Assembly: GCF_000591035.1 (NCBI RefSeq)
Contig: NC_022521.1
Span: 682,001-746,000, forward strand
Length of the DNA: 64,000 nucleotides
Reading direction: 5' to 3'
Source: Aeropyrum camini SY1 = JCM 12091
GTDB taxonomy: Archaea; Thermoproteota; Thermoprotei_A; Sulfolobales; Acidilobaceae
Below the pieces are notes generated by a model. That model saw only the letters and a list, made by a program, of their open reading frames with translations. It ran no database searches and was not told the origin of the DNA. Position 1 is the first letter of the stretch, and each line of letters starts with the position of its first letter. Of the stretch, positions 5,389 through 38,606 are shown piece after piece. Position numbers and translations under genes: made by a program.

Positions 5389-5562
5389 TACGAGCCCCCC
5401 AGGGAATTCGTGGGTTTGGAAGGGATAATCAGCCGTGTGAATATAGGCTATATACAACCCCCCATGGAGGACGTGCCCCACCATGTGTTCGGTGGGGTTC
5501 GCCTTCCTTATATCCCCCCATTTTTATTATGCCGCGGGAGGGATAGTGGAGGGTGCTTGCTC

Positions 5563-6027
5563 TTGAGGATTCCCGGCGGTTTTGGTGTGCTTTGGAGTGT
5601 TGACACTGCTCTGGCTGCGGGCGTTTTGGCGGCTATTCTACTTCTCGCCGTGTCTGGCGTTAGGTTTAACCTTGTAGTCACTGGTAGTATGGAGCCCACG
5701 ATTCCCCGAGGGAGTATTGCCGTTGTGGAGCCTATGCCAGCCTCCCTTCTGAGGGTTGGTGATGTGGCTGCTGTGGAGGATAGGGCTAGGGGGGTGCTCC
5801 TCGTCCACAGGGTGGTGTATATAGACAGGTCGGGGGGCTTCGTCTTCATGAAGGGGGACGCCTCGGAGGCTGTTGAAGGGTTCCCGGGGGAGCAGGTTGT
5901 GGGTAGGGTTGTCTTCCACATACCCTACGCCGGCCTCCCCCTCCTCTACCCCCGGCTCCACATAGCGCTGGTAACGGTGTTGGGGATCCTGGTAACAGTG
6001 CTCCTGTACAGGGAGCTCAGGGGGTGA
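5563..6027 (+). CDS. Signal peptidase I, archaeal/ER type
   Basis: The 154-residue protein from TTG 5563 has an N-terminal membrane segment (residues 15-33), then TGSMEPTIPRG with the catalytic Ser42, HRVV with His82, and KGDAS with Asp99. This Ser-His-Asp set is that of the archaeal/eukaryotic (SipW-like) branch. A second hydrophobic segment near the C-terminus (LHIALVTVLGILVTVLLY) ends the protein. TTG 5563 is chosen because GGAGGG at 5548 sits 9 nt upstream; the open frame extends further upstream but looks non-coding. It overlaps the following surface protein gene, and a small secreted protein lies downstream, suggesting a dedicated export cluster. Confidence 0.88.
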   Translation: MRIPGGFGVLWSVDTALAAGVLAAILLLAVSGVRFNLVVTGSMEPTIPRGSIAVVEPMPASLLRVGDVAAVEDRARGVLLVHRVVYIDRSGGFVFMKGDASEAVEGFPGEQVVGRVVFHIPYAGLPLLYPRLHIALVTVLGILVTVLLYRELRG

Positions 6028-6032
6028 CCACC

Positions 6033-7362
6033 ATGGCTCCAGCGGCTGCAGCGCGGCGATACACCATTATAACCCTGCTCGCCCTCCTCGCGCTCGCGCC
6101 AGCCCTCCACGCAGCCCCCGCCCACTCTTCGCCATCTCCACCGCTCATAGTCAACAACTACAGCTTCCAGATCGTCGTGAGTATTGGTGGTGAGAAGCTT
6201 GTTCTCGGCCCTGGCATGGCTGTGGAGGCCGAGCCTGGGGTTGAAGTTTGTGTGGAGTCCCCCCGCCTCCTATACACGTCGAGCGGTGTGAGGCTTGTGC
6301 TGGCCGGGCTTCTGGTGGACGGCAGGCTGGCCGAGGCACCCTGCACACTCCTCTCCGGCTCCACCCTAGAGCCCCTGTACACCCGCGAGGCCCGTGTAAC
6401 CATACTATCCACACCCCCGGGCGTCTACACCGCCGAAGTCTGGGGGCCCCTGGGGGGGTGTTGTTGAGGTTGAGGTACCCAGCGTAGTGGAGGAGAGTGG
6501 GGGGTATGTTAGGCATGTTCTCCAGGGTGTCCGGCTAGACGGAGGGGCCTACTATAGGGGCGGCAGGCTAGTGGTGAGCCTAGAGGGCCCCAGGACATTG
6601 GAGGCCGTCTATACAACCCAATACCTCCTCGTCGTCGAGGGCAGGGGGTACTGGCACACGGGCAGCCTCGCCATACCTCTGGAGGACCTCGCCTGGGAGA
6701 GCGGGGACGCCAGGATGGTGCCCCAGACCCTAATACTACCCTCCGGCGCCTCCCTGGAGCCTGCGAACGGCCTCTTCATAGTCTCGGGGCCTGAGGCTGG
6801 CGAGGCCCGTGTCGTCTACAAGACCCTCTACAAGGTAGTTGTGGAGAGGCCCGGGGGGGCTGAGGTCCTGTGGATGGAGGACGGGTCAAAGCTATCCCTC
6901 GAGTTCGACCCGGAGATAGAGCTCACGCCCCAGGCTAAGCTCGTCCTCAGCCATGTGGAGGCCGGGGGCGAGAGGATCTCCAGCCCGAGGGTGGAGATGA
7001 CTGTTACGGGGCCGTTGGAGGTTAGGGCTGTCTACGACACCTACTACGCCCTGGAGACCGAGAGCATCCTGGGGAGGAGCTTGCAGTGGGTGGAGGCCGG
7101 GGACACCGCAACCCTCTACTTCCCCCCGGAGATGCCGGGAGGTGTGTTTACGAGGCTGAGGCTTAGCCATGTGGTGGTGAACGGCGAGGAGGCGCCACTT
7201 GGCGGTGGCAGGGTGGTTGTGGAGGTTGACTCGCCCAAGAGGGTGGTGGCAGTCTATACGGTGGAGCCTGTGGCCTGGAGGATAGCTTTGGCGACGATAC
7301 CCCTAGCCATACTCTCGACAGCGGCCGCCGCATACCTATATAGGCTCGCCCGCGGCCTCTAG
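6033..7362 (+). pseudogene. Frameshifted secreted, C-terminally anchored surface protein
   Basis: The first frame (start ATG 6033, or GTG 6024 overlapping the signal peptidase stop) has a signal peptide-like N-terminus (YTIITLLALLALAPALHAAP) and ends at TGA after a run of seven G at 6452-6458. The second frame continues without a gap as VVEVEVPSVVEESGG and runs to 7362, ending in a membrane helix (WRIALATIPLAILSTAAAAY) and RLARGL. Removing one G restores one protein of about 440 residues. The middle has repeated modules each opening with a V-Y-x-T-x-Y pattern (VYTTQYLLVV, VYKTLYKVVV, VYDTYYALET), as in archaeal beta-sandwich surface repeats. Function unknown. Confidence 0.75.
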
Positions 7363-7545
7363 CCCCCCACCGCCACATGCTAATAATGGGGAATACCCGG
7401 GTACTACGGCTTACTCCCAGAACGTTTTATACCATGCCTTGGGATGCGGGTGTCACCAATCCATATTCCTTATAAACACTCACCCTTACAAATCAGAGAG
7501 GCTATAAACCCGGTAAATCCCCCTGGCGCTGGAGGTGTGGCTTGC

Positions 7546-8067
7546 TTGGCTAGGGCTGGGAGGCCTAGGAGGCTCGCCCTTCTCCTCGTAGCCCTCACAC
7601 TCTACATAACAATGACGCTGAGCGCGGCCTACGCCCTCACATCGAAAGACCTTGGCAACAACATCTCGGTGACCGTAGCCGGCTCCAGCCAGGTGCCGGT
7701 CTTCCCCGCAGACAACAGCGGCAACCCACTGGCTTACGCCCAGGGCAGCCTCAACCTATCTAGTAACACCAACATACTCCTCCCCGACAGCGCTACCGTG
7801 GACCTAAACACCACCCGCGGGGGCCTCGTCCTAAGCCTAGACGTGGATCTCACATTCCCCCAGGCAACCTCCAGCAGCGACTCCTGGCAGGTGGTAGTGC
7901 TGCTGAGGGATAGCAGCGGCAGTGTAATAGCGAACACGGGAGACGAGGTGACGGCCACAGGAAACGGCACCACAACAATAACAATAAGCAACATCGACAT
8001 AATATCCAAGGTACACATATCCAAGGTTAAAAGCGTCGAGATAATAGTGGTGCCACTACTACCCTAA
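7546..8067 (+). CDS. Small secreted beta-rich protein, possible pilin/fibre subunit
   Basis: The start is TTG 7546, with GGAGGT at 7531 nine nt upstream. The 173-residue product begins with Arg/Lys then a hydrophobic segment (LALLLVALTLYITMTLSAAYA), a plausible signal peptide with cleavage near AYA-LTS. The mature part is about 145 residues, rich in Ser, Thr, Asn and Val, with alternating beta patterns (NISVTVAGS, GLVLSLDVDLTF, WQVVVLLRDS, TITISNIDI, VEIIVVPLLP) and no Cys. Its position after a SipW-type signal peptidase and its size recall TasA/AbpA-type fibre subunits. That is inference; I see no diagnostic motif. Confidence 0.65.
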   Translation: MARAGRPRRLALLLVALTLYITMTLSAAYALTSKDLGNNISVTVAGSSQVPVFPADNSGNPLAYAQGSLNLSSNTNILLPDSATVDLNTTRGGLVLSLDVDLTFPQATSSSDSWQVVVLLRDSSGSVIANTGDEVTATGNGTTTITISNIDIISKVHISKVKSVEIIVVPLLP

Positions 8068-8081
8068 ACATCAGCCACACC

Positions 8082-8345
8082 TCACCCACCATCCTCTTCC
8101 TCCCCACCCTCCCGGGACAGTAGTGTGGAGGCGAGCTCCAGCACCACCGCCGCCACCAGGCTGTAGTAGGCGTACTCCGCCAGCCTGTTCGCCAGGTCCT
8201 CACTACCTCGCGCCAGCGCCACCGCCGCCATTAGGAGGAGGGCCATGAAGGCTAGGGCGAAGGGGCCACCAGGGTTCTCCCCCGCCCACCTAACCACCCT
8301 CGACAACAACACCCTGAGCCTCCGCACCCCCACCACTAAGCCCAA
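8082..8345 (-). CDS. Small two-helix membrane protein
   Basis: The 87-residue protein has a basic N-terminus (RRLRVLLSRVVRWA), two hydrophobic segments (FALAFMALLLMAAVAL and YYSLVAAVVLELASTLL) and an acidic tail (EGGEEEDGG). I do not recognise a family. It lies 9 bp downstream of the 380-residue membrane-anchored protein on the same strand, so the two are likely co-transcribed and may act together at the membrane, perhaps in the same surface-structure pathway as the neighbouring secreted protein. Confidence 0.6.
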   Translation of the reverse strand: MGLVVGVRRLRVLLSRVVRWAGENPGGPFALAFMALLLMAAVALARGSEDLANRLAEYAYYSLVAAVVLELASTLLSREGGEEEDGG

Positions 8346-8354
8346 GCCCCATGT

Positions 8355-9497
8355 TCACCCCCCGCCACTAGGGGCGAGGTCCTGGAGGAGGGCCTCCCTC
8401 AAACCCACAGTCTCCCCCCCACCACCCACCTCAACAATCCTCACCTTAGTATAGCCCGGCAGCCCAGCCTCCAACAGGACCCCCGCCAGCACCCCCAAGG
8501 GGTCCCCGCCACCCACAGGCTTGGCCCGGGGCAGCCTGAGAGTGGCCTTACCGTCCTCGACGGTTATGGATAGCCCGGTGGGGGGCTGGGGCTCCATCCT
8601 CTCCAGGTATAGCTGGAGCAGCCTGGCCAGGCCAGCCTCCTCCCCCGCCAGCCTCCCCGGGTCCAGCAGCCTCGCGAGCGCCCGGGCAACTGTGGGGGCG
8701 TCGCCCTCGAGGCTCCCCGTGAGGCTGGTCCAGCAGCCTCCAGGGTCCATCTCAACCCGGGCCTTCAGCCTCTCCACAGGCAGAGCCTCGCCGCTGTAGA
8801 CCTCGGGGGGTATGGTGAACACCATCCTACCCCTCACACCACCCCCACTATCCTGGGGGAGCCTCTCCAGGGTGAAGCCCTCCAGCCTCAGATAGCCCGC
8901 AGCCTCCCTAGCCAGCCCCTCTATCCTGTAGAAGGCATACTCCTCGTAAGCCTCCCCGCCACCACTACCCACAATCCTAAACACAGCCTCAACCCTCACC
9001 CCTCCAGGTGTGGGGGTGGCCCTAACAGTCTCGACAACACCCTTCATCGCACCACCAGCATCAAACACCCCCCCACCCAGCAGCACAGCACCCTCCCTCT
9101 GCAAGTCCAAACCCCCGCTCACATTATAAGGACTCTCAGCCAGACAGAGCGAAACACCAGCTTCACCCTCCAAAGCCTCCCTGTCCAGACTAGCCTCCAG
9201 CATAGCCTGGGAAACAGGCAAACCCACCCTCTCCAGCGCCACCGAGGCCTCTACACTACCATCATCGTAAACCAGGGCCTCAACACCCAACCCATAATAA
9301 CCCCCAGCCACCAAACCCCCCAGCAAACCCCAAACCACGGGCCACAAGGCAACAGCAACAACACCAACAGCACCCAAGATCACAACCGCTCCCACAACTT
9401 CCCTACGGCTAAGCTTTTCCAATTTGTTATTTAGAAGGCCAGCCCATCCAGCCCGCAAGCCCCCCATACCCCTACAGACCACCGTGCCCTCCGGCAC
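8355..9497 (-). CDS. Membrane-anchored extracytoplasmic protein of unknown function
   Basis: The 380-residue frame has one long N-terminal hydrophobic stretch (about residues 34-70, VVGAVVILGAVGVVAVALWP and following Gly-rich part), then a large soluble part with beta-strand-like alternation (VEALVYDDGSVEASVALERV, GRMVFTIPPEVY, GLSITVEDGKATLRL). The topology suggests an external domain. Possible starts are ATG 9497 or the Met at residue 11. No family recognised. It converges on the secreted-protein gene and is divergent from the flippase gene, sharing the 64-bp spacer with a TATA element. Confidence 0.65.
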   Translation of the reverse strand: MPEGTVVCRGMGGLRAGWAGLLNNKLEKLSRREVVGAVVILGAVGVVAVALWPVVWGLLGGLVAGGYYGLGVEALVYDDGSVEASVALERVGLPVSQAMLEASLDREALEGEAGVSLCLAESPYNVSGGLDLQREGAVLLGGGVFDAGGAMKGVVETVRATPTPGGVRVEAVFRIVGSGGGEAYEEYAFYRIEGLAREAAGYLRLEGFTLERLPQDSGGGVRGRMVFTIPPEVYSGEALPVERLKARVEMDPGGCWTSLTGSLEGDAPTVARALARLLDPGRLAGEEAGLARLLQLYLERMEPQPPTGLSITVEDGKATLRLPRAKPVGGGDPLGVLAGVLLEAGLPGYTKVRIVEVGGGGETVGLREALLQDLAPSGGG

Positions 9498-9561: not shown

Positions 9562-10974
9562 TTGGAGAGGGATAGGAGCGTCTTGGACAAGAACCTGGAG
9601 ATGACTATAAGGGGAGCCACTTGGATATACCTCGCAAGCCTTACCGTCACTGTCACAGGCTTCGTGTTCTGGCTAGCCATAGCCAGGCTAGCTGGTCCAG
9701 AGGCAGTGGGAACAGCCTCCTTAGTTGTATCGTCCGCAGGTCTCGCCACAAGCCTGCTCGCAGCAGGACTACAGCTCGCCGTCTCCAGGGAGACCGCGGC
9801 AAGGGGTGGAAAAGCAGCGGTGGCAGCCGTATCCCTAGCCCTCGCTGTGGGGCTTGTGGCAGCCCTGGTGGGATATATATTAGCGGAGGGAGCGGATCTC
9901 GGGAGCTACAGCATCTACACAGGGGTTTTCACTCTTCTTGCGACGCTTCAGCTGGCTCTCCTCGGCGTTCTTATGGGCCTCCTCATGTTCCGCCTCTACT
10001 TCCTGACCGTCCTCACTGCAAACCTGGGTAAGATGGCTGTGGGAGTAGCCCTTGCCCTACTAGGCTATGGCGCCCTCTCAGCAGTCCTCGGCGTCATAAC
10101 AGCCCCACTCCTGGTCGCTGTAGTATCTCTCTCAGTTCTCGCTGCCAAGGCCCTCCGCCGCGGCATACCGTGGCCGGACACGGCCTCCATGAGGAGCCTA
10201 GCCGTCCTCGCCGCCTCAAACTACCCTCTCATGTTCTCCATACAACTACTAGTCTTCCTGAGCATATACGGTTACAGACTCCTAGGGGGAAGCCTAGACT
10301 CCACAGGAGGCTTATACATATCCTTCATGATACTCCTCGCCCTTACAAGCCTCCCCACATCACTCCAGCTGGCATCACTCCCAGTGGGCACGAGATTCGG
10401 AGGCAGACCCCAGGAGGCCTCTCTAAGATTAGGCCTAGTCCTCTCCACACCCCTTGCCGTAGCTCTTATAGTTCTGGCACCCCAGGTCCTCGCACTCATA
10501 AACCCTGAGCTAGCCCAAGGCTCAAACACACTCCGCCTCCTACTCCTAGCCACTGCTCCCCTAACAGCGCTAATGGCAACAGCAAGCCTTCTCAACAAGG
10601 AAGGCCAGCCTAAGAGCCTCGCCATATTAGGCCTCACAACCCTCTCCACCCTGACTCTACTCCTCCCTCCTCTCACCAAATCCCTGAACAGCAGTGGAGC
10701 CGCTGCCGCATTCCTAGCAGCAACAACCCTCAACGCACTCCTCCAAACTCACATACTCAAACTACCCACTAAACCACTCCTCACCGCTCAGACCGCCCAA
10801 GCGACGGCCCTCCCCCTGGCCCTATACATGCCACCACTGGCCGCTCTCCCCCTAGCCCTAGTAGCCTCAGCCACCATACTCCTCGCATCGAGGACAGCAG
10901 AGCTAAGGGAGATACACACTCTCGTTAAAACCGCCGTATCAACCATTGGAGGAAGAGAGACCTCTGGAGATTAG
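9562..10974 (+). CDS. Polysaccharide flippase (MOP/Wzx-like)
   Basis: The 470-residue protein has about 12-14 hydrophobic segments spread evenly from residue 17 to 455. It begins with the typical flippase pattern RGATWIYLASLTVTVTGFVF followed by WLAIARLAGPEAVGTASLV. MOP-superfamily members of this type move lipid-linked glycans across the membrane. The start is TTG 9562 (ERDRSVLDKN). It stands next to secreted and surface proteins and about 6 kb from the glycan island, so a role in exporting a lipid-linked sugar for surface glycans is likely. The second half is visibly A/C-rich in the sense strand compared with the first. Confidence 0.82.
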   Translation: MERDRSVLDKNLEMTIRGATWIYLASLTVTVTGFVFWLAIARLAGPEAVGTASLVVSSAGLATSLLAAGLQLAVSRETAARGGKAAVAAVSLALAVGLVAALVGYILAEGADLGSYSIYTGVFTLLATLQLALLGVLMGLLMFRLYFLTVLTANLGKMAVGVALALLGYGALSAVLGVITAPLLVAVVSLSVLAAKALRRGIPWPDTASMRSLAVLAASNYPLMFSIQLLVFLSIYGYRLLGGSLDSTGGLYISFMILLALTSLPTSLQLASLPVGTRFGGRPQEASLRLGLVLSTPLAVALIVLAPQVLALINPELAQGSNTLRLLLLATAPLTALMATASLLNKEGQPKSLAILGLTTLSTLTLLLPPLTKSLNSSGAAAAFLAATTLNALLQTHILKLPTKPLLTAQTAQATALPLALYMPPLAALPLALVASATILLASRTAELREIHTLVKTAVSTIGGRETSGD

Positions 10975-11009
10975 GGATGGGGAGTAATACAGAAACGTTA
11001 CATTACGCG

Positions 11010-11411
11010 TCAAGCCCTTCCACTCTCTCTTTCCTCGCTCTTCACTGCCTTCTCAGGCTTCTCTCCACTCTGCTTCCCCTCAACCTCCTTACCCTCACCT
11101 TCGAGCTCCCTCTCAAGCCTTTTCAACTCCTCCTCAATCTCCTTCTCGATCTCCTCAATAGGCTTGGGCGGCGGAGTAGTTGCAAGCACATAGCCCACCC
11201 AGGCAAGCAGGCCGAAAAACCCAGCAACAGCCATCAGCCCAGTAAGCTTTATAACCAACTCCCACCAGCCTGTGAAGAAAACTAGGTAAGCGTAAACGAT
11301 TATGACCGCTAGAGAGCCTATTAGCAGGCCAAACCCAACTAGCCTATCCCTATCCAAACAAGGCACCCCCTTTAGCTGGCCTACCCTTATCATCTTGAGA
11401 CATGTAGACAT
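11010..11411 (-). CDS. Conserved two-helix membrane protein with acidic/charged tail
   Basis: The 133-residue protein has two hydrophobic segments (LVGFGLLIGSLAVIIVYAYLVFF and LTGLMAVAGFFGLLAWVGYV) joined by a short Trp-rich loop (TGWWELVI), then ATTPPPKPIEEIEKEIEEE and a long charged tail likely to be helical. I recall similar small proteins in many Crenarchaeota, sometimes labelled transcriptional regulator without evidence. Function unknown. Its actual start may be downstream of 11411, close to DRDRLVGFG. Confidence 0.7.
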   Translation of the reverse strand: MSTCLKMIRVGQLKGVPCLDRDRLVGFGLLIGSLAVIIVYAYLVFFTGWWELVIKLTGLMAVAGFFGLLAWVGYVLATTPPPKPIEEIEKEIEEELKRLERELEGEGKEVEGKQSGEKPEKAVKSEERESGRA

Positions 11412-11484
11412 CTAATAAATAGCTTCTCATCTCATTGTTGTAGCTTGCCTATATAAGTGAGACAACACTCGTCTACGATGTAAG

Positions 11485-12063
11485 TTAAACGTGCTGGGTT
11501 TCTAGTGTACTCTTCACCAGCCTATAAAGCTTTGCAACATTGTCCTCCACAGGATTAGATTCGGTGTCTAACACTAGCTCCGGCTTCTCCGGTGGCTCGT
11601 AGGGATCTGTGACTCCTGTGAAGTTCTTTATCTCGCCTTTGAGGGCCTTTCTGTATAGGCCCTTTGGATCCCTCCTTATAACCTCCTCCAGGCTAGCCTT
11701 AACATATATCTCGAGGAATGGTATTCCCTCCTCCTCAACTATACCCCTTACCATACTTCGGGCCTCCCTATAGGGTGATACGAAGCTGCAGAGGACTATG
11801 ACACCGTTTCTCGCTAGAAGGCGTGCTATCCACGCTATCCTCCTGAGGTGTCTTATCCTCTCCTCCCTCGTAAAACCAGCTCCCTCGCTTACAGTCCTCC
11901 GCGCCCAGTCACCATCTAAAACCTCAACCCTAAACCCCTCCATCCTAAGCATCTCTGCAAGGCGTGATGCTATAGTGGTCTTACCGCTACCCGGTAGGCC
12001 AGTCAGCCAGACAACAACACCTCTGTCTAGACACCTGTGGTATGACACAGCCCCAGCCCCCAT
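11485..12063 (-). CDS. cysC: Adenylylsulfate kinase
   Basis: The 192-residue protein has the P-loop GLPGSGKT at residues 22-29, VLDGDWARR, GFTREERIRHLRRIAWIA, and LCSFVSPYREARSMVR, with the lid-region motif DPKGLYRKALKGEIKNFTGV and TDPYEPP. These are hallmark APS kinase motifs. The enzyme phosphorylates adenosine 5'-phosphosulfate to PAPS. ATP sulfurylase lies 1.3 kb away on the other strand, making a sulfate-activation locus. The length fits a single-domain APS kinase. Divergent from the RHH gene across a 190-bp A+T-rich spacer. Confidence 0.93.
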   Translation of the reverse strand: MGAGAVSYHRCLDRGVVVWLTGLPGSGKTTIASRLAEMLRMEGFRVEVLDGDWARRTVSEGAGFTREERIRHLRRIAWIARLLARNGVIVLCSFVSPYREARSMVRGIVEEEGIPFLEIYVKASLEEVIRRDPKGLYRKALKGEIKNFTGVTDPYEPPEKPELVLDTESNPVEDNVAKLYRLVKSTLETQHV

Positions 12064-12248
12064 TCGGGCCGATATTAACTCTAGCGTATTAAACTAGTTC
12101 TACAGGAATTATTCCTTAGTGATTATTCCTAGTAAGGCTCCTATCTTACAAACTGTTGTATAGGGTTTCGTTATGCCTTGAAAACTGGTGGAAACTATTT
12201 AACTATCCCTCGGGGAAACATATGCGTGTTGGATAGAGCAGGGGGCTG

Positions 12249-12464
12249 GTGCTGATGGGGGATAAGGTTTCTGTAGAGATCTCTAAGGAACTCTATGAGA
12301 AGGCTAAGAAGTTTATAGAGGAGAATGGGGGCTTCAAGGACGTCTCCGAGCTTGTAGAGTTCCTCCTTAGCGAGGCCATATCCGACGAGGCGGAGACGGT
12401 AGGTATGACTCCTGAGGAGGAGGAGGAGGTTAAAGAGAGGCTCAGAAGCCTGGGCTATATCTAG
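12249..12464 (+). CDS. Ribbon-helix-helix (CopG-like) small protein
   Basis: The 71-residue frame (GTG 12249, or more likely ATG 12255 with GGGGG 9-10 nt upstream) reads KVSVEISKELYEKAKKFIEE followed by GFKDVSELVEFLLSEAI and an acidic C-terminus ending RLRSLGYI. This is the short RHH pattern of crenarchaeal CopG-like proteins: one strand, two helices. It sits just upstream of the permease and sat genes, so it may regulate sulfate activation. That is inferred from position only. Confidence 0.75.
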   Translation: MLMGDKVSVEISKELYEKAKKFIEENGGFKDVSELVEFLLSEAISDEAETVGMTPEEEEEVKERLRSLGYI

Positions 12465-12490
12465 ACTGCCCGTAAGGGTGCCTAGCCTCC

Positions 12491-13354
12491 TTGGAACCAG
12501 CGGAGGTCCTGCGGCTAACGGGAGTTTTTGTAGCAGGCTTGACAGCATCTGCACTTGACTATGGCCTAGGACTCGGCTTTGGCCTCATCGCAACTCCCAT
12601 GCTAGTTATTCTAGACTTAGACCCGAGGCAGGCTATAGCAGTCACACTCAGTGCCCAAGTGTTTTCATCCCTCTCAGCACTATACGCTTGGCGTTCAACG
12701 GGAACAGAGGGCCCTCCAAAACAGATTATAATTGTGTTGGCCATATCCGCCTTGGCTGGAGTCGTATGGGGCTCGCTACTAATGAGTCTCCTGGAGGAAG
12801 AGGAGGCTCTGGCCTTATATACCGCCGCCCTAGTGGTTGTTACAGCATTCTTTATAGTACCAATGTTGGACAAAAGTCGCGAAGGAGCTGGAGGACCTAG
12901 CAGGCCTTATGTTCTAGTTCTTGGTGGCTTTGTTGGAGGACTCTCTAAAGCCCTCTCCGGGGGAGGCTTCAGCCCTATCGTTGTAGCCGCTCAGAGAGCC
13001 TCTGGGATCGACTATAGAGCTTCTCTAGTAGCCATTCCTATCATAAAACCGCTCGCCTTCATAACCGCCGCAGCCGTCTACTCTTGGGCAGGCCATATGA
13101 ACCTTACTACTGCAGCCGTCCTAACAGCCGGGAGCATACTAGGCTCCCTCCTGGCTCCAAAGCTACCAGGTATCATGCCCATCCGCTGGGCCCAGGTCCT
13201 CGTTGTCCTCGCCCTCCTGGCTCCAAAGCTACCAGGTATCATGCCCATCCGCTGGGCCCAGGTCCTCGTTGTCCTCGCCCTCGCGGCTGCCGCCTTAAAA
13301 GCCGTTTACAGGTTATCGAGTGAGTATGGGGTGTTTAGCTGGCTTGGTCTCTAG
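12491..13354 (+). CDS. TauE/SafE-family permease with internal duplication
   Basis: The 287-residue membrane protein has 8 or more hydrophobic segments and the two half-repeat pattern of TauE/SafE carriers (GLGFGLIATPMLVILDLDPR... and GGLSKALSGGGFSPIVVAAQ). TauE/SafE proteins move sulfur oxyanions or sulfonates; here, between an RHH gene and ATP sulfurylase, a sulfate or sulfite role is likely. Near the C-terminus the 22-residue segment APKLPGIMPIRWAQ plus VLVVLALL occurs twice in a row, from a 66-bp tandem duplication that keeps the frame. The start is TTG 12491; the 3' end overlaps the possible sat start. Confidence 0.82.
   Translation: MEPAEVLRLTGVFVAGLTASALDYGLGLGFGLIATPMLVILDLDPRQAIAVTLSAQVFSSLSALYAWRSTGTEGPPKQIIIVLAISALAGVVWGSLLMSLLEEEEALALYTAALVVVTAFFIVPMLDKSREGAGGPSRPYVLVLGGFVGGLSKALSGGGFSPIVVAAQRASGIDYRASLVAIPIIKPLAFITAAAVYSWAGHMNLTTAAVLTAGSILGSLLAPKLPGIMPIRWAQVLVVLALLAPKLPGIMPIRWAQVLVVLALAAAALKAVYRLSSEYGVFSWLGL
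13146..13282 (+). repeat. 66-bp perfect tandem duplication inside permease gene
   Basis: The unit beginning CTGGCTCCAAAGCTACCAGG at 13151 recurs at 13217, with period 66 bp and no mismatch visible over both copies; five extra bases match on the left. The unit encodes 22 residues including most of one membrane helix. Perfect identity at all codon positions indicates a very recent event. Confidence 0.92.
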
Positions 13355-14498
13355 GCCCCATGGCGGTAGACTAGTTAGGAGGGTTTTGACGGGTAGGAGG
13401 AGAGAGATTTTTGAGGCGCAGTCGGGTGAGATGCCCAGGCTTGAAGTGCCTCTGGAGAGGGCTATAGATGCTGAGGACCTGGCTCGAGGCGTCTTCAGCC
13501 CCCTTGAGGGGTTTATGGTTGAGGACGACTATCTGAGCGTTCTGAACCGCATGAGACTCTCCAACGATCTCCCATGGACCATACCCATAGTGTTGGACGC
13601 AACCCGTGAGTGGCTGGAGAGTCAGGGGTTGTCGCCTGGCGACGACATAGTACTTTTATACAATGAACTCCCTATAGCAGTTCTCACACTGGAGGACGTC
13701 TACACCTGGGATAAGAGGCTTCACGCTGAAAAGGTTTTCAAAACCCGAGACCCCGGCCATCCTGGGGTTGAGGCGGTATACAAGAGGGGCGACATACTTC
13801 TGGGCGGGAGGCTAGAGCTTATACAAGGCCCGCCCAACCCGCTGGAAAGATATACGCTCTGGCCCCTCGAGACTAGGGTTCTATTCAAGGAGAAGGGTTG
13901 GAGGACAATAGCGGCGTTTCAGACCAGAAACGTGCCCCACCTGGGCCACGAGTATGTGCAGAAGGCGGCCCTCACCTTCGTCGACGGCCTCCTAGTCCAC
14001 CCCCTCTCAGGCTGGAAAAAGAAGGGTGATTATAGGGACGAGGTTATTATAAGAGCGTACGAGGCCCTCACTAGCCACTACTACCCACGTGGTGTGGTGG
14101 TCCTCTCAGTACTTAGGATGAACATGAACTATGCGGGCCCTCGAGAGGCTGTACACCACGCCATAGTGCGGAAGAACTTCGGCGCCACACACTTCATCGT
14201 AGGCCGCGACCACGCGGGCGTCGGCAGCTACTACGGGCCCTACGAGGCGTGGGAGATCTTCCGCGAGTTCCCAGACCTAGGCATAACACCACTCTTCGTA
14301 CGGGAGGCCTACTACTGCACGAGGTGTGGGGGGATGGTTAACGAGAAGGTCTGCCCCCACGGGGAAGAGTATAGGGTTAGGATAAGCGGCACCAGGCTGA
14401 GGGAGATTCTGAGGAGGGGTGAGAGGCCTCCGGAGTATATGATGAGGCCTGAAGTGGCTGAAGCAATAATATCTCATCCAAACCCCTTTATAGAATAA
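13320..14498 (+). CDS. sat: ATP sulfurylase (sulfate adenylyltransferase)
   Basis: The 392-residue protein contains FSPLEGFM, AFQTRNVPHLGHE (QTRN and the HxGH nucleotide motif, from residue 199), VHPLSGWKKKGD, and GRDHAGVGSYYGPY, all diagnostic of ATP sulfurylase. A zinc-type C-x2-C-x8-C-x1-H site (CTRCGGMVNEKVCPH) lies near residue 340, as in prokaryotic Sat. It makes APS from ATP and sulfate, feeding the nearby APS kinase. Start choices are GTG 13320, ATG 13326 or TTG 13344; the last best matches family N-termini (SRPHGGRLV) and has GGGGTG about 10 nt upstream. It overlaps the permease gene. Confidence 0.95.
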   Translation: MSMGCLAGLVSRPHGGRLVRRVLTGRRREIFEAQSGEMPRLEVPLERAIDAEDLARGVFSPLEGFMVEDDYLSVLNRMRLSNDLPWTIPIVLDATREWLESQGLSPGDDIVLLYNELPIAVLTLEDVYTWDKRLHAEKVFKTRDPGHPGVEAVYKRGDILLGGRLELIQGPPNPLERYTLWPLETRVLFKEKGWRTIAAFQTRNVPHLGHEYVQKAALTFVDGLLVHPLSGWKKKGDYRDEVIIRAYEALTSHYYPRGVVVLSVLRMNMNYAGPREAVHHAIVRKNFGATHFIVGRDHAGVGSYYGPYEAWEIFREFPDLGITPLFVREAYYCTRCGGMVNEKVCPHGEEYRVRISGTRLREILRRGERPPEYMMRPEVAEAIISHPNPFIE

Positions 14499-32787: not shown

Positions 32788-32797
32788 CTTTATATGC
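32788..32797 (+). promoter_or_regulatory. TATA box of the subtilase gene
   Basis: CTTTATATGC lies about 42 bp before the TTG start at 32835, placing transcription start near 32820. Confidence 0.5.
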
Positions 32798-32834: not shown

Positions 32835-35800
32835 TTGCGGCTTCCAACACTCAAACTCACTGTTCTCCTCCTCCTAGTTCTCCAGGTATTTTCGGCGGCT
32901 TTGGTTCCTGGCGTTGCCCAGTCGGGTGGCGAGGACCTCGGGGGCTATAGTGGCTATCCTGGGCCGCTGGCCATGCTTGTGGATTCTCTCGAGGAGGAGG
33001 GTCTTGGGCTGGGCGAGCTGGAGGCTATGGATGCTGCGGTGCCTGTTGTGGTCTACCTCGACAGCCGGGCGGAGGCTGAGAGGCTTCTGCGGGAGTATGA
33101 GGGGCTGGTCTGGCTCTATAGGGGGCCCCTGGTCTCGCTGGCTGGCGGCTCCCTGGGTGTTGAGGACCTCAGGCGCCTCGCCGGGGAGAGGGGTGTCTCA
33201 CTCATCATGCCTCTGGGGCCTCTCAAGCCTGTTTCCACGGCGGAGGCCCAGCCCCCGGTGGGTGTTAGGGGGGTGCTGGAGGCCCGGTCTCAAGCCGCTG
33301 TGGTGGGAGGCTCGCTCGTCTACGACAGGCCGCTTAGGCTGACTGGTGCTCTGGAGGCGTGGGGGATGGGGTACCGGGGGGAGGGTGTTGTCATAGGGGT
33401 TATTGACACTGGCGTGGACTTCTCTGGCCCTGGGCTTGGCGAGGATAAGGTGGCGCTCTCACCCCAGGGGCTGCCGCTTGTAGTGGACTATGGCATGGTA
33501 TTCCTCGCCGCCCCCCTCCAGGTTGAGGTGGACCCCGATGCTAGGGTGGGTGTTGTGGATTTCCAGGGGCTCTACACTGTCGAGGTTGGCTCCGCAGGCC
33601 TGGGGATTGTTGTTAGGAGGACCTCGGGCTTCGCCTCCATTGTGTACGTGGACCCTGAGGGCCAGGCGGGGTTCGGCTACGAGACCTACAGCCTGGAGCC
33701 CCCAGGGCTTCCGGGTGAGGTTGTGGAGGCCGCCCTCCAGGGCGGTTCGCCCCCCAGGTATGGGCTCCTTGTGTCGGAGAACATAGCCCAGACTGCCGAC
33801 GGCGGCCTGTTCTGGTATAGGATGACGGTGCCCGGGCTCGTCGCCGACCTCGACGCTGACGGGCTCTACGACACGGTCTACCTAGACACGACAACAGCCC
33901 TCCACTACCTAGCCTCAGCGGCCAGGCAGGCGGGCCTAACCCTCTTCCCCGCCCCCGCCGCGGCTGACTACAGCTTCGAGGGGGAGAAGCCCGTTACCCT
34001 CCAATCCCCCCTGGCGGGCTACGACGCTAGGGGTGACGGGGACATAGACTTCCCCATCGGAACCCTCGCCGGGTATACTGCTGACATAGCCGGGGCGGCC
34101 TTGGGTATGGCGACGGGATTGCTGGACGAGCTGGCCTCCGGCCTGCCGGAGGGTGGTGTTGCAAGGATACCCACGAACGGCATGCCAACAGGCTACCTGC
34201 TACCCGGCCTCGACTTCTGGCGGGGGAGATACGCGGTCTTCCATACTGACCCCGATGGACACGGGACCATGGCTGCCTCCACCGCCGCTGGCAGGGAGTA
34301 CGTGTTCAACGTGGAGACGGGGCTTGGGGTGGAGGTGGATATGGTTGTCTCCGGCACCGCCCCTGAGGCGATGCTGGCGGCGAGCTCCATGTACATCTAC
34401 GAGCACGCCATGCTCACGTTCTCAGGCTACATGATGGTCGACTCTGAGACAGGGGAGCCGCTTTGGACGTCGCCGTGGGAGGGGGGCTCCGACCCCTGGG
34501 ACAGCCTAGACCCCAGGCTCCGCGGCACACCGGTCAAGGCGGAGTGGGTATGGACCGGGAGCCCCCTGGTTGACATGACTACCAACAGCTGGGGGATACC
34601 TTCTCTCCAGTACTATGTCGACAAGCCTCTGGGCATGGATGAGGTGAGCCTCTTCATAGACTCCATAACCCTGGAGACGGGGGTGCCACACTTCGTGGCG
34701 GCCAGCAACGGGGGCCCCGGGCTAGGGACGGTCACCGCCCCCGCCACAGCCAGGCTGGCGGTGGCTGTTGCGGCGGTGACTGACATGGCCTACCTCTCAC
34801 TACAGCCCCCCAGCTACCTGCCCACCCCGGCCGGCCTGGGCGGCCACGGGGACCCCGCCTACTTCTCTTCCCGCGGTCCAAGCCACACAGGGTTCCCCAA
34901 GCCCAACCTGGCCGCTGTGGGCGCCTCCGCCTACACAACCGGGAGGAGCCTAGACCATATTGTCGGGGGGAGGCTGGAGCCCAGGGCCTTCCCCCTGCTG
35001 TTCGGAGGCACGAGCATGGCTACTCCGATGGCCGCGGGGGCCGCGGCCTTGGCGGTGCAGGCGGGGAAGGAGGTGCTGGGCGCCGAGCATCTAGGCCTCG
35101 CCGGGTGGCTGAGGGTCTACACAGCCCTGGCCATGACGGCGGGGTGGAGTGGAAGGCCCTGGACGGACCTGGGTGCTGGGGTTGTGAACGCGGCGGGTGC
35201 GATAAGCCTGCTGAAGAGCCTGGAGCTCGGCCTCTTCATCTACTCCACAGACACCCTCCAGGACCTGGCCGGCGGCGCCCCGCTGGATACCCAGGGCCTG
35301 GGCCTCCCCATGATCCACCTCTGGGCTGGGGCTGGTGCGAGGACCTCGGTTGAAATAGTGGTCGAGGGGGATGGTGTGGTGGGCCTGAGGGCCGTGGAGC
35401 CCAGGCTGGAAACCGTGCTGAGCTACAGGTCCCAGCTAGACCTCTCCACCCCCGCCTCCACGAGCGGAGCCTACTCGGTGTTCGACGTCGCCACGATCGA
35501 CCCCGAGACCCTCCCCCATGGCCCATTGGAGGTCAGCCTCACCCTGCCGTACGAGGTCTTCGACAGGCTTGGGCGGGAGAGGTCCTCGACTGCCTGGGAG
35601 GGCTACCAATACGGCGTGATGGCTCTCCTCTACTGGGCAGACCTGGACGGCGACGGCCTGGGGGACGGCGGGGAGTACTACGTCCTCTCGGTTGACGAGA
35701 GGGCCGCTAACGCGTTCAGAATCCAGCTCTCAAACTTGGGCGAGGACCTCGCCGAGGCGAGGGCTGCCCTGGGTGTCGCAGGGGAGGTGGAGGAGGCTCT

Positions 35801-36935
35801 CCTGGTTAGGCTTGCCCTAGCAGGCCTCTCACCACCCCAGAACCCGGTGGTCGAGGCCTCGGTAGAGGTGTTGGGGCTCTCGTGGAGGGAGAGCGGGGCC
35901 CTCATGCTCCCCGAGGACCTGACTGTTGATGGCCGGGCCGTGGTCACCGCCACGGTATCGCCCCCCTCCCCGGGTGTCTACACCGGCTATATAGTAGCCT
36001 CCGCCGGGGGGAGGGAGTATAGGATGCCCTACACCATACTAAGCCCCTACAAGCCCGGCCACACAGGGGTGCACGTCCCCCAGGGGCTCGGGCCCGACGA
36101 GTACTATGAGGAGGCGTGGGTGAGGGGCGCCTTCAACTACTGGTGGTGGTATGAGGATGGTGACTGGAGGATAATCCCTATAGAGCTCCCAGGCCCTGGG
36201 CTCACGGTGGCGAGGCTCTCCTGGAGCGTCGAGGAGGGGAGGGAGGCGTACGCCACCAACATAGACGCCTACCTCTACCTCAACAGGCCCTCCATCACCG
36301 CGGTTGAGGGAGGGGAGGTCCTGGTTGGTGTGGAGGAGCTCGCCCTAGCCTCGAGGGAGGCCTCCACGGCGAACACATTCTTCGACCCCCTGCTAACCGG
36401 CTTCTGGGACCAGCCGGGGAAGGGGCCGGGTGAAACGGTGCTGGCAGCCTACAACCACGCCCCCGGCAGGGCTCTCCTAGTATACAGGGCGGTCCAGTAC
36501 AGCGGCGAGACTGCCTGGCAGCCGGTGGCTATAACCATATACCACACCCCCATCCACACCCAGGGCACCGCAGCCCCCGGGGAGGCCGCGCAGGCCGCGG
36601 TGTCGATGGCCACGCTCTACAGGCTCGGAGACCTCGTAGACCAGCCGCTCGAAGCCAGGGTGGAGGCCTATGGGGATGCTGGCGGGTGGACCCTGCCCCC
36701 GCCCGGGGCGTCGGCGGATGTAGCAGGCTACACAGAGCCCCTGGGGGGGCACGTGGCGTCAATAGTGGTCTCCATAACCCTCCCGAGCGATCCATCCGCC
36801 GAGGATATACTGGCCAGGATAGACCTCGGCCTCGCGCTGCCTAGGATGAGCAGCGGTCTCACCACTACAGGGGAGGCCGAGAGAATCGCCAGCGAAACCA
36901 TATACACGGTGGTACCTGTCGCTCAGGCCGGGTGA
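32835..36935 (+). CDS. Giant secreted subtilisin-like serine protease (S8)
   Basis: The 1366-residue protein has a signal peptide (LTVLLLLVLQVFSAALVPGV-AQS), a propeptide-like region, and a subtilase domain with IGVIDTGVDF (Asp191), DPDGHGTMAAST (His476), ASNGGPG (Asn625) and GGTSMATPMAAGAAAL (Ser727). The gap of 285 residues between Asp and His is unusually large and contains an inserted region with DADGLYDTVYLDTT-type metal-site repeats. About 640 residues of beta-rich sequence follow, with no C-terminal membrane helix. It lies directly upstream of a coiled-coil membrane-stalk gene, which could hold it at the cell surface. Start TTG 32835. Confidence 0.92.
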   Translation: MRLPTLKLTVLLLLVLQVFSAALVPGVAQSGGEDLGGYSGYPGPLAMLVDSLEEEGLGLGELEAMDAAVPVVVYLDSRAEAERLLREYEGLVWLYRGPLVSLAGGSLGVEDLRRLAGERGVSLIMPLGPLKPVSTAEAQPPVGVRGVLEARSQAAVVGGSLVYDRPLRLTGALEAWGMGYRGEGVVIGVIDTGVDFSGPGLGEDKVALSPQGLPLVVDYGMVFLAAPLQVEVDPDARVGVVDFQGLYTVEVGSAGLGIVVRRTSGFASIVYVDPEGQAGFGYETYSLEPPGLPGEVVEAALQGGSPPRYGLLVSENIAQTADGGLFWYRMTVPGLVADLDADGLYDTVYLDTTTALHYLASAARQAGLTLFPAPAAADYSFEGEKPVTLQSPLAGYDARGDGDIDFPIGTLAGYTADIAGAALGMATGLLDELASGLPEGGVARIPTNGMPTGYLLPGLDFWRGRYAVFHTDPDGHGTMAASTAAGREYVFNVETGLGVEVDMVVSGTAPEAMLAASSMYIYEHAMLTFSGYMMVDSETGEPLWTSPWEGGSDPWDSLDPRLRGTPVKAEWVWTGSPLVDMTTNSWGIPSLQYYVDKPLGMDEVSLFIDSITLETGVPHFVAASNGGPGLGTVTAPATARLAVAVAAVTDMAYLSLQPPSYLPTPAGLGGHGDPAYFSSRGPSHTGFPKPNLAAVGASAYTTGRSLDHIVGGRLEPRAFPLLFGGTSMATPMAAGAAALAVQAGKEVLGAEHLGLAGWLRVYTALAMTAGWSGRPWTDLGAGVVNAAGAISLLKSLELGLFIYSTDTLQDLAGGAPLDTQGLGLPMIHLWAGAGARTSVEIVVEGDGVVGLRAVEPRLETVLSYRSQLDLSTPASTSGAYSVFDVATIDPETLPHGPLEVSLTLPYEVFDRLGRERSSTAWEGYQYGVMALLYWADLDGDGLGDGGEYYVLSVDERAANAFRIQLSNLGEDLAEARAALGVAGEVEEALLVRLALAGLSPPQNPVVEASVEVLGLSWRESGALMLPEDLTVDGRAVVTATVSPPSPGVYTGYIVASAGGREYRMPYTILSPYKPGHTGVHVPQGLGPDEYYEEAWVRGAFNYWWWYEDGDWRIIPIELPGPGLTVARLSWSVEEGREAYATNIDAYLYLNRPSITAVEGGEVLVGVEELALASREASTANTFFDPLLTGFWDQPGKGPGETVLAAYNHAPGRALLVYRAVQYSGETAWQPVAITIYHTPIHTQGTAAPGEAAQAAVSMATLYRLGDLVDQPLEARVEAYGDAGGWTLPPPGASADVAGYTEPLGGHVASIVVSITLPSDPSAEDILARIDLGLALPRMSSGLTTTGEAERIASETIYTVVPVAQAG

Positions 36936-36989
36936 TAAGGGGCCTGGCTACACGTGTTTTTCCCCGGGGGGTGACTATAGTATGGACCT

Positions 36990-38606
36990 TTGATGCTTGG
37001 GGTGGTGCATGTGGTTTCCGGGCGTCTCCCGCTTCTCGCGGCTATCCTCATAGCCTCAGCCCTCCTCACCCCCCTCTCCACCGGGGTTGCGGGGGCCCAG
37101 CCTGCTGTGATGGTCGTAGGCCCCACACCCTCCCCGCCCGTGGACATACTAGTCTGGCTGGGGGGCTTCGAGCCCTACGATATAGTGGAGGTGTGGCTCT
37201 CCACAGGGGCATCCAAGACCCTGCTTGCAACCCTCTACCTAGGCTCCACGGGGGAGGGTATTGAGATGGTGGGCCTACCGAGGGACCTGGGGCCGGGGCT
37301 ATACACCCTGGAGTTCCAGGCCCTCTCAGGCCTCTCCACCACAGCCACTGTGGAGGTGGTGGAGCCCAGCCTCACCCTGGATAAGAGTCAGGCCGCCGTG
37401 GGGGAGCTGGTTACTGCTGAGGCCGAGGGCCTGGGGGGCGGCGGGGTGTCCTACGCCTACCAGCTCCGGGTAGCGGGCGTAACGGTGGCGGTGCTCTTCC
37501 CAGGAGAGGATGGGAGGGCCTCAGCCAGCTTCCCGCTACCCCCTCTGCCCAGCGGTGTATACACTGTGGAGCTCGTCTACACACCCCCAGTCTGGGTGAG
37601 GTTCCAGAGCGTCTACGGTGGGGAGGCGGTGCTTGCCACGGCGGAGATAGAGGTTGTTGAGGGTGTTGCAACCCTGGGGGAGGCTAGGGCGATAGCCGAG
37701 GAGGTGGCCTCGGCCTACGTCGCCCCCCTGGAGGAGAGGCTCGGCCTGGTTGAGCAGGCTGTGGAGGACCTCGGCCTAGCCCTCGACAGCCTTGGGCAGA
37801 GGGTGGAGGACCTGGAGCTCGCGGTTGAGGACCTCACCCTGCAGCTGTCCAGCCTAGACTCTAGGGTCGGGGCGCTGGAGGATAGCGTGGAGGATATACA
37901 GTTGAGGCTTGAGGCTGTGGAGTCCTCCCTCGAGGACCTCTCGGGGGTTGTGGAGGCTATGGGCCAGCAGCTCGAGGCCCTGTCAAAGGACCTGGAGAGC
38001 CTGAGCGGCAGGGTCGAGGACCTCGAGGCCAGGGTGGGCGTGAGCGAGGAGAGGCTCTCCCAGGCCGAGGAGGATATAGACAGCCTCGCCGCCAGCCTAG
38101 ACAACCTAAGGGTAGAGCTCGACAGAGTCTCCAGCCAGCTGGCGGAGGCCCAGGCGGGCCTCGAGGACCTCAGGCAGAGGCTAGACACTGTAGGCTCAAC
38201 ACTGGAGCAGCTCCAGCAGAGGCTCGCCACCCATGAAGACAGCCTGCAAGCCCTCGCCGGAGACCTAGCAGGCCTCCAGACGAGGGTTGAGACCCTGAGG
38301 CAGTCCCTAGACGAGATAGACGGGAGGCTGAGCATGCTCCAGGCCACGATAGACGAGGCGAGGCTAGAGATAGAGGACCTCGGACAGCGTCTAGCCAGGG
38401 CGGAGGAGAGGAACCAGGCGCAAGACACAAGCATCGAGGACCTCCAGACCCAGCTCCAGGAGCTGAAGACCCAGCTAGAGGAGAAGTCCAGGGAGGCCCA
38501 GCAGACCGCCAGCTCGGCCAACCGCTGGAGCATGGCGGCGGCTGGAGCCTCACTAGTAGCCCTAGCAGCAGCCGCAGCGGCGATAGCAAGAGTGCTTAGA
38601 GGCTAG
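36990..38606 (+). CDS. Coiled-coil surface stalk protein with C-terminal membrane anchor
   Basis: The 538-residue protein has a signal peptide (LPLLAAILIASALLTPLSTG...AGA-QP), two beta domains (about residues 35-230), then about 265 residues of near-unbroken heptad repeats (VEDLELAVEDLTLQLSSLDS and similar), and a C-terminal helix (WSMAAAGASLVALAAAAAAI) followed by ARVLRG. This is the plan of archaeal S-layer stalk proteins of the SlaB or tetrabrachion kind. Being next to a huge subtilase recalls the tetrabrachion-bound protease of Staphylothermus. Starts TTG 36990, ATG 36993 or a downstream GTG are possible. Confidence 0.85.
   Translation: MMLGVVHVVSGRLPLLAAILIASALLTPLSTGVAGAQPAVMVVGPTPSPPVDILVWLGGFEPYDIVEVWLSTGASKTLLATLYLGSTGEGIEMVGLPRDLGPGLYTLEFQALSGLSTTATVEVVEPSLTLDKSQAAVGELVTAEAEGLGGGGVSYAYQLRVAGVTVAVLFPGEDGRASASFPLPPLPSGVYTVELVYTPPVWVRFQSVYGGEAVLATAEIEVVEGVATLGEARAIAEEVASAYVAPLEERLGLVEQAVEDLGLALDSLGQRVEDLELAVEDLTLQLSSLDSRVGALEDSVEDIQLRLEAVESSLEDLSGVVEAMGQQLEALSKDLESLSGRVEDLEARVGVSEERLSQAEEDIDSLAASLDNLRVELDRVSSQLAEAQAGLEDLRQRLDTVGSTLEQLQQRLATHEDSLQALAGDLAGLQTRVETLRQSLDEIDGRLSMLQATIDEARLEIEDLGQRLARAEERNQAQDTSIEDLQTQLQELKTQLEEKSREAQQTASSANRWSMAAAGASLVALAAAAAAIARVLRG

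Follow-up and report, generated by a model that had tools for sequence, protein, structure and literature searches.

We characterized two adjacent genes on the forward strand of a 64,000-nucleotide stretch of the Aeropyrum camini SY1 genome (G000:C1:682001-746000, of 1,595,994 bases; hereafter the window), the first encoding a giant secreted subtilase and the second a membrane-anchored coiled-coil protein that we refer to as the stalk. We consider it rather probable that the pair forms a two-subunit, membrane-tethered extracellular protease in which the stalk serves as the mast for the subtilase. On comparative grounds the pair is best read as the split counterpart of single-chain subtilase-coiled coil-transmembrane (TM) proteins encoded in sister genomes, and the stalk probably keeps the enzyme at a fixed height over the membrane, since stalks of the same kind occur in related microbes as one piece with such enzymes. 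Binding between the subtilase and the stalk is proposed here from sequence comparison. The enzyme itself is ordinary within its family; it is the arrangement that is unusual.

Single-chain counterparts and the genus pattern

In two genomes, G030 and G028, a head homologous to that of the window stalk, a heptad coil, and a TM helix were found as the C-terminal part of one chain (1368 and 1374 residues, respectively), with the fused heads 37-38% identical to the stalk head. Peptidase_S8 was identified in the G030 chain by Pfam (E 2e-37), while S8 in the G028 chain was identified through a BLAST match to residues 585-743 of the window protease (E 3e-4). G539 encodes a more distant head (29%) joined to an M6 peptidase. 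Defining a protease-stalk module as a head homologous to a protease-fused head, followed by a heptad coil and a C-terminal TM helix, we found all three elements in the window stalk. The single-chain proteins overall (L148, L149, L279-L282, and L069) share with the window pair a signal peptide, an S8 domain, a coiled coil, and a C-terminal TM helix, and those of L148 and L149 carry the same head; they differ in being one chain instead of two and in belonging to another S8 subfamily, without the large insert of the window enzyme.

It was noted that a coiled-coil-stalked S8 peptidase occurs in all six genomes of the genus g1, split over two genes in G000 and G005 and encoded as a single chain in G006, G007, G008, and G009 (1021, 1057, 996, and 1066 residues; S8 by Pfam in all four). 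G000 and G005 possess three S8 genes each and no single-chain stalked form. This complementarity, seen in six genomes only, is the best comparative argument for the two genes acting together.

Homologues of the stalk head were encountered in 17 of the 214 genomes of the order when a single sequence was searched (E <= 0.01) and in 71 of the 214 with a profile (E <= 0.001), the latter matches being mostly weak and partial. The whole-genome searches use a loose first pass that can miss genes, and several of the genomes are incomplete. Strong stand-alone stalk homologues were found in G009 and, twice, in G007, where a contig end truncates one of the two. Among 20 head-like places, a non-random sample chosen by hand from the profile matches, 19 had a coiled coil and eight had S8 motifs; of the 14 that were submitted to Pfam, four contained S8 and another two contained beta-helix or BNR domains.

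Conservation of the pair in a second Aeropyrum genome

The orthologous pair was identified in G005 (1,669,696 bases), which we take to be Aeropyrum pernix, at L041 6158-10282 for the protease and 10368-11969 for the stalk, with order and strand kept and a gap of 85 nucleotides, compared to 54 nucleotides in the window. The proteases are 71.4% and the stalks 73.8% identical, and the ratio of nonsynonymous to synonymous substitution rates (dN/dS) is 0.27 for both genes. The sequence TTTATAT at 32789..32795 (+) aligns with a TTTATAT 5' of the G005 orthologue and is likely the archaeal TATA box of the unit, and the alignment of the two species revealed no common TATA-like box in the gap between protease and stalk. 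Because the motif is common only 5' of the protease, a single transcript covering both genes is suggested. A sigma-70 promoter and terminator scan was uninformative, the host being an archaeon. Together with the fusions, the conservation in G005 makes a subtilase and stalk unit the best reading of what the earlier note had called a surface protease complex; the part of that claim that made it the tetrabrachion/STABLE counterpart was not borne out, as set out below.

Protease phylogeny and gene neighbourhoods

A careful tree built on 35 rows groups the window protease and the orthologous G005 protease first with G007 (support 98/96) and next with six genomes of g27/g31 (100/100). The resulting clade is separate from the STABLE-like paralogue, and its stem measures 2.21 changes per column. 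A quick tree (58 rows) gave the same picture, the G007 join having a Shimodaira-Hasegawa-like approximate likelihood ratio test (SH-aLRT) value of 91.

We assessed 58 protease neighbourhoods for genes combining a signal peptide, a coiled coil, and a C-terminal TM helix, with counts that omit four truncated loci. Such genes made up 13 of the 34 same-strand genes immediately upstream and three of the 42 immediately downstream (the window, G005, and G385), compared to none of the 29 adjacent genes on the opposite strand and one of the 553 farther away. The same-strand adjacent genes therefore stand at 16/76 and the others at 1/582 (Fisher test; p = 3e-15, a value that overstates the association because the loci are related). 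The upstream cases span f1, Staphylothermus-like, g35, f5, and f14 genomes, and the f14 arrangement was also present in named Nitrosopumilus and marine thaumarchaeote records (L218, L219, and L221).

Several findings weigh against the pair acting as one unit. A stalk lies beside the protease in only two of the nine members of the careful-tree clade (G000 and G005) and any coiled-coil neighbour in only three, the third being G385, whose downstream coiled-coil gene (968 residues) is not among the head-profile matches. The window-type protease of G007 is unlinked from the two stalk homologues of that genome, one of which stands at the end of a molybdopterin-oxidoreductase operon (L150 6906-16314), and G009 has a stalk with no window-type protease found. 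Gene order kept between two close species is weak evidence, and the fused subtilases belong to another S8 subfamily than that of the window (the catalytic domain of the window enzyme gave no match at E 0.01), so the contact between head and protease may not be homologous. The earlier note had named a lack of co-conservation of the two genes as a refuting condition: by this test the wide claim, conservation across the order, failed in the nine-member clade, in G007, and in G009, while the narrower claim held for G005. The molybdopterin operon of G007 gives a hint that masts may carry enzymes other than proteases.

A different arrangement was observed in Nitrosopumilaceae-like genomes (L118 6610-11821, L119, L120, L127, L218, L219, and L221), in which a coiled-coil membrane protein of about 320 residues is encoded directly 5' of the subtilase. 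These subtilases are pyrolysin-like and have a C-terminal TM helix of their own, and the two genes overlap by 17 nucleotides in L118. In L118 and L221, a secreted, S-layer-sized protein of 1718-1770 residues precedes the coiled-coil gene. We looked for a strict trade-off between a protease carrying a TM helix of its own and its having a stalk partner, but none emerged: in the f14 (Nitrosopumilaceae-like) proteases the two occur together.

These neighbourhoods bear on the possibility that the window pair is a maturation machine, in which a tethered subtilase cuts surface-layer or pilin precursors and not food protein. A review (PMC5744192) gives the proposal that STABLE cleaves the precursor of tetrabrachion, subtilase genes adjoin coiled-coil TM genes in several lineages, and the cluster of a 1770-residue secreted protein, a 320-residue coiled-coil protein, and a subtilase would suit such a role. 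The window pair, however, is not beside an S-layer-sized gene, and no window-type protease was found in G006, G008, or G009 (two of them only 76-82% complete). We consider this explanation very improbable.

The window subtilase

The protease gene (32835..36935, +) is an open reading frame (ORF) with a TTG start encoding 1366 residues of pyrolysin/STABLE-like architecture. Pfam placed Peptidase_S8 (PF00082) at residues 472-748 (E 9e-22; 78.1 bits against a cut-off of 21.8), and the Asp-His-Ser triad and the oxyanion Asn were intact. In an alignment of 62 sequences, comprising the window protease and relatives from the whole-genome searches, catalytic Asp191 (33405..33407, +) was D in 61 of 62 relatives, the remaining one being truncated, and His476 (34260..34262, +), oxyanion Asn625 (34707..34709, +), and Ser727 within GGTSMATP (35013..35015, +) were each conserved in 62 of 62. 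A signal peptide is predicted at approximately residues 1-29 (32835..32921, +) from a hydrophobic segment at residues 1-19, and no hydrophobic segment was found at the C-terminus by a home-made hydrophobicity script; home-made scripts, in place of standard predictors, were used for all signal-peptide, coiled-coil, and TM calls. These features bear out the earlier description of a secreted subtilase without a membrane anchor.

Between Asp191 and His476 lies an insert of 284 residues (192-475; 33408..34259, +) that the earlier note had judged unusual and equipped with metal-site-like repeats. The repeats stand. Acidic, Ca-type loop 1 (DLDADGLYD, residues 338-346; 33846..33872, +) keeps its first D and a D, E, or N in ninth place in 56 of 61 relatives, and loop 2 (DARGDGDID, residues 397-405; 34023..34049, +) keeps D...D...D in 56 of 58, the window version deviating somewhat from the DFTGDGVND of many relatives. 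Beyond the insert, loop 3 (D936...E947; 35640..35675, +) was present in all 56 relatives with the loop aligned. The claim of unusualness was dropped: the Asp-His spacing is 200-301 residues (median 262) in all 61 relatives with both residues aligned, which rules the insert out as a novelty. Because all 61 have such a length there and the acidic loops are mostly kept, the insert with its loops is a hallmark of the pyrolysin/STABLE-like family and no peculiarity of the window protease, which belongs to this family by its large insert, its acidic loops, its length (the family having about 1300-1400 residues), and its alignment with the 61 others, including the G199 subtilase discussed below.

An AlphaFold model from the single protease sequence reached a predicted local distance difference test (pLDDT) score of 33.6, too low to be of use. 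With 11 sequences the pLDDT was 52.5 and the predicted template modeling score 0.65, and the subtilisin fold was recovered (147 structure matches, E <= 0.001); residues 75-185 of this model, within the insert, had pLDDT < 50, so that it gives nothing reliable on the insert.

Pyrolysin of Pyrococcus furiosus is likewise a giant S8 peptidase that has inserts in the catalytic domain and is extended at length at its C-terminus; it was compared here via a relative from a Thermococcus metagenome-assembled genome (L231). Pyrolysin is not known to have a stalk partner.

The stalk protein

The stalk gene (36990..38606, +) is an ORF with a TTG start encoding 538 residues; the start may instead be GTG 37011, which would give 531 residues, because this codon aligns with the G005 start behind a common GGTGGTG. 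As had been described, the protein has an N-terminal hydrophobic, signal-peptide-like segment, a coiled coil, and a membrane anchor. The head (residues 37-238; 37098..37703, +), which has homologues in other genomes, gave no Pfam match at E 0.01 and is suspected to be an immunoglobulin-like beta structure. The heptad coiled coil (residues 253-511, 259 residues; 37746..38522, +) was recognized by its periodicity, with a period of 3.505 and a power of 44.0 compared to at most 8.4 in 200 shuffles; positions a and d are 92% and 76% LIVM and the other positions 5%. Taken as a single straight helix bundle, the coil computes to a length of 38.6 nm. The C-terminal membrane helix (residues 515-533; 38532..38588, +), called from hydrophobicity, is followed by a short basic tail.

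This layout invites comparison with SlaB of the Sulfolobales, which also comprises secreted beta domains, a coiled coil, and a C-terminal TM helix. Under such an explanation the stalk would be an S-layer anchor or spacer of SlaB-like build, the protease would be released or bound elsewhere, and the genes would be mere neighbours. The stalk coil matches 8qox_B (SlaB of S. acidocaldarius) as well as the SlaB model of NCBIfam, and stalk homologues occur without a window-type protease (G009) or apart from it (G007). Both SlaB matches, however, are confined to the coil, the one to the NCBIfam model reaches 41.2 bits against a cut-off of 700, and the head profile gave no match to 8qox, so that membership of SlaB was ruled out. 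Furthermore, a homologue of the head is fused to S8, and the S-layer candidate of this genome (L039, below) has a coil and TM helix of its own. We regard the anchor or spacer explanation as unlikely, though the least so of the alternatives weighed here, and retain the stalk as a probable mast for the subtilase.

Comparison with tetrabrachion and STABLE

The earlier note had taken the pair to mirror, in a simpler two-gene form, the tetrabrachion and bound protease of Staphylothermus. The analogy is partly supported: both systems have a coiled-coil membrane stalk and a giant pyrolysin-like subtilase without an anchor of its own, but the window pair is not the tetrabrachion/STABLE counterpart of its genome. 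In G199 (1,570,485 bases), which we take to be S. marinus, tetrabrachion was identified at L278 4757-9340 by matches to the PDB 1fe6 and 1ybk sequences. One of the two S8 genes of this genome, L105 8831-12880, is of STABLE length (1345 residues for STABLE), and for this reason we presume it to be STABLE; its Asp-His insert is 246 residues compared to 284 in the window, and acidic loops are shared as well. The tetrabrachion and STABLE-like genes are approximately 391 kb apart, and therefore the genes of the classical complex do not form a pair, whereas the window genes are linked. The window protease also falls in another clade than STABLE.

The stalks differ further. Tetrabrachion has 1527 residues with arms and a hendecad coil, while the window stalk is a heptad coil with only about 200 head residues before it and no arms. 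The period measure returned 3.665 for tetrabrachion as a positive control, and because of this the 3.505 of the window coil is a valid negative for the right-handed tetrameric hendecad coil (power at 3.667 just 1.1). By the same length rule the 469-residue tetrabrachion coil is 69.9 nm. According to PMC5744192, the stalk was measured at 70 nm with the proteases 32 nm below the branch point, which places the S. marinus protease approximately 38 nm above the membrane. A window protease at the tip of its mast would share this height, below the likely canopy; the similarity of predicted heights is suggestive of the tethered-protease reading but no proof, and it presupposes an enzyme sitting at the stalk tip.

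A closer counterpart was found within the same genome. Approximately 290 kb from the window pair, L039 encodes a protein of 1621 residues (9631-14496) with a signal peptide, a beta-type region, a coiled coil, and a TM helix, then a subtilase of 1331 residues (5389-9384); this second pair is also present in G005. The 1331-residue subtilase clusters with that of G090 in the careful tree (100/99, in a group of nine rows), and the L039 pair is the closer tetrabrachion/STABLE counterpart by architecture and, for the protease, by phylogeny. The coil of the 1621-residue protein has a period of 3.525, an unclean hendecad, and a length of 55.3 nm, and its likeness to tetrabrachion is mostly in the coil. 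The window pair as the S-layer of this genome was ruled out in favor of the 1621-residue protein, and a recent duplication of the STABLE-like pair was ruled out because the proteases lie in different clades (100/100). In G090 and g35 (L106 11919-14534 and L107), the gene 5' of the subtilase encodes 862-871 residues and is preceded by a secreted 649-650-residue gene, as if heavy and light chains were encoded apart.

The second pair raises the question of whether the big tetrabrachion-like L039 protein is where the window protease docks, leaving the small stalk to serve some other partner. Linkage is unneeded for such docking, given the 391 kb between the partners in G199, and the closest protease relatives have no coiled-coil neighbour in six of nine cases. 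The big protein nonetheless has an adjacent subtilase of its own, and the long separate branch of the window protease (2.21 changes per site) does not suggest a common docking site. We hold this docking to be quite doubtful, and the stalk encoded next to the window protease stays the preferred partner.

Proposed function and significance

In the proposed mechanism, both proteins would be exported via their signal peptides, the stalk would be kept rooted by its C-terminal helix, and the heptad coils would form a rod with a computed length of about 38 nm. Either the rod itself or the head at its tip would bind the giant anchorless subtilase, which from its triad and loops is expected to be an active, calcium-stabilised endopeptidase. 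Held between the membrane and the S-layer, the enzyme may feed peptides to the heterotrophic host or process surface proteins. A. pernix was described as having a p4 S-layer and a relatively large periplasmic space (PMC5744192).

We also entertain, as a tentative and on the whole doubtful generalization, that hyperthermophilic archaea position proteases and other surface enzymes at a defined height between membrane and S-layer by means of interchangeable coiled-coil masts, separate or fused, with coil length and not sequence conserved, and with the Aeropyrum pair as the separate-gene case. If the tethered-protease reading is right, stalk-mounted subtilases, whether split or fused, would be common among Thermoproteota, and the culturable A. 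pernix would offer a two-gene unit for asking whether digestion takes place in the sub-S-layer space and whether the position of the enzyme is set by the length of the coil. According to a 2017 review, the S. marinus S-layer was the only archaeal S-layer component for which enzymatic activity had been reported, as far as its authors knew (PMC5744192). No description of the gene pair was found in the open PMC papers searched, including PMC2678158, PMC3386259, and PMC12838322, a scope that leaves subscription papers mostly outside.

Additional observations

Single-chain subtilases of approximately 1660-1750 residues (L153, L160, L070, L197, and L205) are common in the order and carry carboxypeptidase-regulatory-like repeats, an immunoglobulin-like domain, and a coiled coil. 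An antisense ORF of 272 residues (37715-38533, -) spans the coiled coil of the stalk and has a counterpart in G005 (L041 11078-11920); it is most likely a by-product of the codon bias of the repeat. Between G000 and G005, synonymous divergence (dS) was 0.61-0.79 for the protease and stalk pair and 0.73-1.10 for the second pair, compared to 0.12-0.29 for the three genes just downstream. The much higher dS of the surface genes is as if surface loci held exchanged or old alleles.

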